Assembly (NCBI GenBank): GCA_022824865.1
Contig: JAJDZD010000013.1
Span: forward strand, 79,162-143,161
Length of the DNA: 64,000 nucleotides
Reading direction: 5' to 3'
From: Chloroflexota bacterium
Lineage (GTDB): Bacteria; Chloroflexota; UBA11872
Part shown: positions 28,311 to 29,267 of the stretch, piece by piece
Numbering within the stretch: position 1 is the first letter of the stretch
Layout of the letters: each line of letters begins with the position of its first letter
Made by a program: the position numbers and the translations under genes
Notes under the pieces: model-generated
What the model saw: the letters and a program-made list of their open reading frames with translations, nothing else
The model's database searches: none
What the model was told of the DNA's origin: nothing

Positions 28311-29267
28311 TCACAATCTACCATCACTTTCAATGCGCCTCAGTGCGCATATTAACTGCTCGCGTCCACGAGGTGTATGCCTATACAAAGAACGAGCCTT
28401 ACGCAGCATCCTTCCAACATCACGACCAGGTGCCAAACCAAACTCCCGCATGATATCCGCACCTGTAATCGGCAAGGGAAGATCATAATCATTCATGATT
28501 GTCTGCTCAACCAACCTGCGCGCCTCATACTCAAAATTATAGCCCGCAGACAATGATCGTATATGGCTAGACCAGCTACCGTAGTGGCTATTTCCAATTC
28601 GCTCAGCGTCCAACCACGGCTGTCCAAGATCGTGAATCACAGCCTCTACGACCTTCAGATACTCATGGAGATCATGATGCCGCTCAAGCCGCACAATCCA
28701 CTGCTCGAGGATCACTTCGCGGGAGGAGTCTTGCTCTATCATCCGAACACAAGCGTTAATACTGCTAAGAAAATGATAAGACGACTCTAAGACACCAAAT
28801 AGCGCACGCTGCCACTCCTCGTCATCACCAGGCATTGCAGAACCGCAGTGTTGAACGAACCACCTCGCGCATCGTTCCTGCAACTTCACCTCTCGAACAG
28901 ACGTCAGCGTCAAGTTGTGCTGAAGATATGTTCGCAAATCACGAATATCTCGGAAATGCCGACTGTTCCTCATCCCCTCATCCAAGCCGTAGACTTCCAA
29001 TCTGGGAACCAAGAGGCGGAAGCTCACTCGGCCCGCCTCCACATAAAACGCATATAGCCATGTAACCGTCTGATAGAATGATAGCTCTGCGTGCGACGCG
29101 TGTGGCAGTCGTACTTGCATTTGGCTAAACGCATCACGACCATCCAGCAATTGACGACTTCGATTCACCACTTCCTGGTGGAGAACCAGCAATTGATACC
29201 ACAACCCTGAACTAGCCTCAGCAACCACATGTGCCTCAATTTCTCGAACGCACTGTGGGATCAGCAA
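28311..29267 (-). CDS. Unknown protein: HEPN-like motif plus CCA-adding-enzyme-like C-terminal tail
   Basis: IRDLRTYLQHNLTL (RxxxxH) and LPITGADIMREFGLAPGRDVGRMLRKARSLY. Confidence 0.6.
   Translation of the reverse strand: MLIPQCVREIEAHVVAEASSGLWYQLLVLHQEVVNRSRQLLDGRDAFSQMQVRLPHASHAELSFYQTVTWLYAFYVEAGRVSFRLLVPRLEVYGLDEGMRNSRHFRDIRDLRTYLQHNLTLTSVREVKLQERCARWFVQHCGSAMPGDDEEWQRALFGVLESSYHFLSSINACVRMIEQDSSREVILEQWIVRLERHHDLHEYLKVVEAVIHDLGQPWLDAERIGNSHYGSWSSHIRSLSAGYNFEYEARRLVEQTIMNDYDLPLPITGADIMREFGLAPGRDVGRMLRKARSLYRHTPRGREQLICALRRIESDGRL

Follow-up and report, generated by a model that had tools for sequence, protein, structure and literature searches.

Within the window, the whole 64,000-nucleotide stretch of DNA analysed here, a segment absent from related genomes houses a two-gene cassette on the minus strand, in which the gene for a STAND-type NTPase lies directly upstream of a small gene. 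The features discussed below are as follows.

28214..33416, no strand assigned: inserted segment of about 5.2 kb with the two-gene cassette, absent from relatives, the flanks being contiguous in congeneric genomes
28311..29267, minus strand: gene for the small, probable effector, with a HEPN-like domain and a CCA-enzyme-like tail; 318-codon open reading frame, probable coding sequence 28311-29228 from a GTG
28332..28676, minus strand: C-terminal CCA-adding-enzyme-like tail, residues 198-312, core LPITGADIMREFGLAPGRDVG; from hhalign to independent CCA enzymes, with PF13735 sub-threshold in three homologues
28731..29201, minus strand: HEPN-like helical domain, residues about 23-179; from an all-helical, high-confidence model and motif placement as in PMC3710099
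28917..28934, minus strand: RxxxxH motif RTYLQH (R112-H117), with R112, T113 and H117 invariant in eight homologues
29028..29039, minus strand: E77-A-G-R80, with the conserved acidic residue that precedes RxxxxH; E77 and G79 unchanged across the eight homologues
29236..32652, minus strand: STAND-type NTPase of 1138 aa, probable sensor and activator; Pfam nSTAND_NTPase5 (PF25199), 40.4 bits (cut-off 34), with seven full-length homologues
31282..31686, minus strand: nSTAND_NTPase5 ATPase core (PF25199), residues 323-457
31528..31548, minus strand: Walker A motif GQTGTGK, GxxGTGK being invariant in eight homologues
31693..32652, minus strand: N-terminal domain of the NTPase, probably degenerate sirtuin-like (iSirtuin/SIR2-like), from its motifs

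The peptides quoted in the preliminary description of this DNA were located in the 318-codon minus-strand reading frame at 28311-29267. The TTG with which this frame opens overlaps the upstream NTPase gene, and the GTG at 29226-29228, accompanied by a Shine-Dalgarno-like GAGG at 29234-29237, is more likely to be the true start, giving a protein of 305 aa. The preliminary description had considered the small protein on its own, and had passed over the paired STAND gene on the same strand, the pairing being the best pointer to what the protein does.

The limits of the inserted segment are set by congeneric genomes, where the left flank stops at about window positions 28207-28213 and the right flank restarts at 33417-33423; in one of these (G004) the left flank runs to 28213 and the right flank resumes from 33417, with 31 bp between. 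Since the flanks in congeners are separated by as little as 31 bp, about 5.2 kb has been inserted in the window. The GC content is 0.50-0.51 inside the cassette genes against 0.63-0.67 outside them, and 63% for both genome and window. No integrase was found at the insertion in the window and no terminal repeats at its ends, and a search with Rfam found no RNA. On viral contigs the cassette lies beside a lambda-type integrase, terminase gpA and portal genes, and GPD baseplate or tail-tip genes, a placement like that of the defence cargo of temperate phages.

Three copies of the 3' end of a NUDIX (NADH pyrophosphatase-like) gene are present, at 24099-24313, 26859-27073 and 28043-28206 (100, about 92 and 73% identity); the last of them stops a few bases short of 28214, the left edge of the inserted segment, hinting at repeated insertions at the end of this gene. 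Another congener has, at the site of the cassette insertion, some 2.5 kb of other DNA with host-like GC content (L131, G010:C11:127800-131200), which encodes a PD40-like lipoprotein resembling the window gene at 25163-26749. A role as third component was weighed for the FGE-sulfatase gene just downstream of the cassette (27142-28251) and ruled out, as the gene falls outside the inserted segment and also occurs in cassette-less congeners; a link through it to a DGR was also dropped, no template/variable repeat pair being seen nearby. Elsewhere in the window, a type I restriction-modification stretch at 41930-48235, comprising an HsdR/ResIII reading frame and one of 850 aa that combines N6 methylase with specificity domains, is of lower GC content and adjoins two tRNA-Ser genes (48536-48748), forming a second defence island; an AAA_33/zeta-toxin-like kinase reading frame lies at 20414-21007.

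The small-protein family numbers eight members including that of the window, to which the others are 20-34% identical, and the eight loci span two classes of one phylum together with prophages. Among 151 related genomes, a protein search turned up a single full-length relative (G033, 23% identity); G555 was found with a profile in another class, and scanning of viral contigs with the NTPase gave four prophage loci, L069-L072. L078, also from viral contigs, is the closest to the window, with 38% identity between the NTPases and 34% between the small proteins. At all eight loci the NTPase gene is followed in tandem by the small gene, the two being adjacent or overlapping, often by 4 bp. The identities of NTPase and small protein run in parallel and define three clades (window with L078; G033 with G555; L069-L072), and the pair therefore appears, from these comparisons, to be inherited as a unit. 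The cassette is rare: of 41 genomes belonging to the window's class two have it, and of 219 sampled in another class, one. Searches of plasmids and phages with the window's small protein (P0001), and with several homologues as queries, gave nothing, and E. coli genomes likewise yielded no match. One candidate from the genome-collection scan (L003) proved to be a chance short match inside an unrelated decarboxylase-like reading frame. A search for the PF25199 family was overwhelmed by generic P-loops, and its two strong matches, both in genome G126, are STAND genes (L054 and L055), one with a TIR-like N-terminus; both reach the contig end, with no HEPN-like partner in the sequence present. The prophage locus L072 (1-6817) also carries RelA/SpoT-like and PIN_12 genes, and a reading frame with an RNxxxH-type string (6164-6817) adjoins its cassette, so that this locus is possibly a defence hotspot.

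All seven full-length homologues of the NTPase are likewise paired with a small gene. When the N-terminal 320 residues of the NTPase are aligned by eye with sirtuin motifs, LGQ stands for GAG, TxSxD/SSAID for TTNxD and LF for LHG, together with GxxVVxG....DW. Pfam gave iSirtuin (E 0.087) and SIR2_2 (E 0.096), both below threshold and in one homologue only. This N-terminus is probably a degenerate sirtuin-like domain: the features of a catalytic SIR2 are absent, with Asn changed to Ser or Ala, HG to FG/FS, and no significant SIR2 match. Hydrolysis of NAD by it is unlikely, because Avs5 needs the corresponding Asn, which is changed here. As the N-terminus of the NTPase looks catalytically degenerate, the small protein is the probable effector of the cassette.

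HEPN RNases are described as helical domains of about 100-150 aa with an Rx4-6H motif that terminates helix 3 (PMC3710099). In the same account, Rx4H closes a helix, with the His in the loop and a polar residue after the Arg; an acidic residue lies upstream, typically as Ex3[KR] in helix 2, and helices 2 and 3 are separated by an additional one (PMC3710099). The small protein of the window contains seven RxxxxH strings; composition alone leads one to expect such strings, and their mere presence therefore says little. The only one conserved is RTYLQH, in which the three invariant residues are shared by all eight homologues (column permutation 0.0054), so that the motif picked out in the preliminary description as a HEPN site holds across the family. 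An AlphaFold2 model built on the eight-sequence alignment is all-helical (pLDDT 85.4, pTM 0.68) and resolves the N-terminus, which had been poor in an earlier model from two sequences. In this model helix 97-116 ends with the RxxxxH motif, H117 comes next, in the loop, and E77 lies in helix 60-78. Helix 80-92, T113 and E77 agree with the HEPN description, but the spacing from the acidic residue, Ex2[RK] instead of the typical Ex3[KR], does not. The fold itself, as distinct from the motif, gained no support from database comparison: Foldseek of the model against the PDB and the viral library BFVD gave no significant match, no HEPN family was matched in Pfam, and the protein has no family match in PADLOC. 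From the model and the placement of its conserved residues, we consider it likely that the helical domain is a HEPN domain.

The preliminary description had also read the C-terminus as the tail of a tRNA nucleotidyltransferase that lacks its polymerase domain, and both halves of this proposal were borne out. PF13735 (tRNA_NucTran2_2) matches at one common profile phase in the window protein (E 0.006), in P0002 (E 0.016) and in the L078 protein (E 5.3e-4), all three matches being below the curated cut-off. When a two-sequence profile of the small protein was run over 400 genomes, the matches beyond the two true homologues were to the tail only, in CCA-adding enzymes with VGGxVRD heads; all 12 inspected were CCA enzymes. 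Because this first set had been picked through the tail itself, a second set of 25 enzymes was fetched independently with PF13735. With an HMM of these, the four homologues that carry the tail reached 7.5-16.1 bits, the highest value among 4000 shuffles being 5.3, and hhalign of the small-protein tail with the independent set gave 94.4% probability (E 9.5e-8, 111 columns). The tail is thus more than an unrelated helical region, and is almost certainly, to judge from these alignments, homologous to that of class II CCA-adding enzymes. The nucleotidyltransferase (PolyA_pol) head PF01743 has no match in the window protein and is present in the true CCA enzyme, which this genome encodes on a separate contig (contig 59 of G000).

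The tails of CCA enzymes bind the tRNA elbow and measure from it (PMC4810234, PMC3925840). The small proteins of L069-L072 do not match the CCA set (0.1%), so that the signature is undetectable in four of the eight homologues, and docking on tRNA is therefore either not essential family-wide or has diverged. G033 and G555 are closer in NTPase identity to L069-L072 (36-39%) than to the window clade; if these identities reflect the tree, the tail would be ancestral and lost or diverged in this prophage branch, an order of events read from pairwise identities and not from a rooted tree.

Two-gene linkage, motif conservation, tail homology, mobility and prophage carriage, all computed here, are the setting for the mechanism that we propose. 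Its STAND ATPase, with iSirtuin-like N-terminus, nSTAND5 core and long C-terminal region, would sense a phage cue through the C-terminal part, switch on through an ATP-driven rearrangement, and then activate the small protein. The latter would be a metal-independent HEPN-type RNase with R112, H117 and E77 as its active site; its tail would dock on the tRNA elbow and present the tRNA to the HEPN site, and the ensuing tRNA cleavage would halt translation and phage growth. An anti-phage role for the cassette is very likely from its sequence context. The small protein is best read as a HEPN-type RNase whose tail binds tRNA, a reading that is partly supported, both RNase activity and tRNA targeting being putative; tRNA is, on a narrow balance, its probable substrate. 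The full proposal, that the small protein is the effector of a mobile two-gene abortive-infection cassette combining STAND sensor, HEPN RNase and a tail docking on tRNA, we regard as reasonably probable.

The main rival keeps the STAND and HEPN RNase defence cassette and makes the tail a hairpin for protein interaction or dimerisation, with RNA cut broadly. It would account for the loss of the tail signature in four prophage homologues where RxxxxH and the cassette persist, and defence HEPNs that have been characterised, Tha for example, cut RNA without specificity (PMC11087260). Against this, PG(P)xxG is kept in two deep lineages that are 22-25% identical to each other, and such retention suggests that the ligand has been kept as well; broad cleavage is on these grounds unlikely, if the most serious of the alternatives. 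Less probable still is a helical domain without catalytic activity, serving for RNA binding or as a scaffold, or some other helical fold in which an Arg and a His are conserved: the silence of Foldseek and Pfam on a HEPN fold speaks for it, but the invariant R, T and H, together with the E, occupy the helix positions described for HEPN.

The invariant RxxxxH, which suits an enzyme, also bears on the idea that the small protein is a sensor of tRNA integrity (tRNA ends or abundance), relaying phage-induced tRNA damage to a STAND effector. CCA tails do measure from the elbow, and STAND proteins integrate signals, but the degenerate look of the STAND N-terminus would leave no other obvious effector, and we consider this scheme very doubtful. 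An ordinary toxin-antitoxin or housekeeping pair with no anti-phage role, to which two overlapping genes might point, is the most improbable reading of all, given a partner that is a STAND ATPase of 1138 aa and no antitoxin, the patchy presence of the cassette, the empty site in congeners and the prophage cargo position.

Cleavage of tRNA is increasingly seen as a common endpoint of bacterial immunity, and how the effectors find tRNA is mostly unknown. For a reading in which an RNase-like domain fused to a known tRNA-docking module is placed under STAND control, the question of how specificity is built becomes testable by a single deletion, and natural tail-less relatives provide controls for tail-based specificity. 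One may suppose, tentatively, that a STAND-controlled immune RNase took the elbow-docking tail of a CCA enzyme as a ready-made guide, turning a general HEPN into a tRNA-specific one, and that in the prophage branch this ancestral tail was lost or replaced and the target changed.

Each part of the cassette has known counterparts. With the HEPN superfamily (PMC3710099) the small protein shares Rx4H at a helix end, the His in a loop, the polar residue after Arg, the upstream acidic residue, the extra helix and a helical domain of about 100-150 aa; it differs in having no detectable sequence or Foldseek match to a known family, in Ex2[RK], and in the fused CCA-like tail. With class II CCA-adding enzymes (PF13735) it shares a tail of about 70-110 aa with LPIxGxDxMxxFxLxPGxxxG, but it is without nucleotidyltransferase head, neck and HD body, and the cell has its own CCA enzyme. 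Pairs of STAND protein and HEPN effector are predicted counter-invader systems (PMC8195603), and the two-gene nSTAND2 systems with HEPN or GT4 effectors likewise join a STAND module to a variable HEPN effector (PMC8195603), whereas here an nSTAND5 core is found in a single STAND protein with a sirtuin-like N-terminus, and the separate effector has a tRNA-type tail. Avs5 (SIR2-STAND) also has, within one polypeptide, a sirtuin-like N-terminus together with a STAND ATPase and a helical C-terminal region (PMC12931631), but it is an nSTAND3 protein with a catalytic SIR2 needing Asn110, where the by-eye motif alignment has Ser or Ala here, and in the window cassette the probable effector comes from a second gene. 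The modules are each already known. A fusion of HEPN with a CCA tail was not found described in the open-access literature searched, nor was the combination of nSTAND5, HEPN-like RNase and CCA-enzyme tail found in PADLOC or in that literature.
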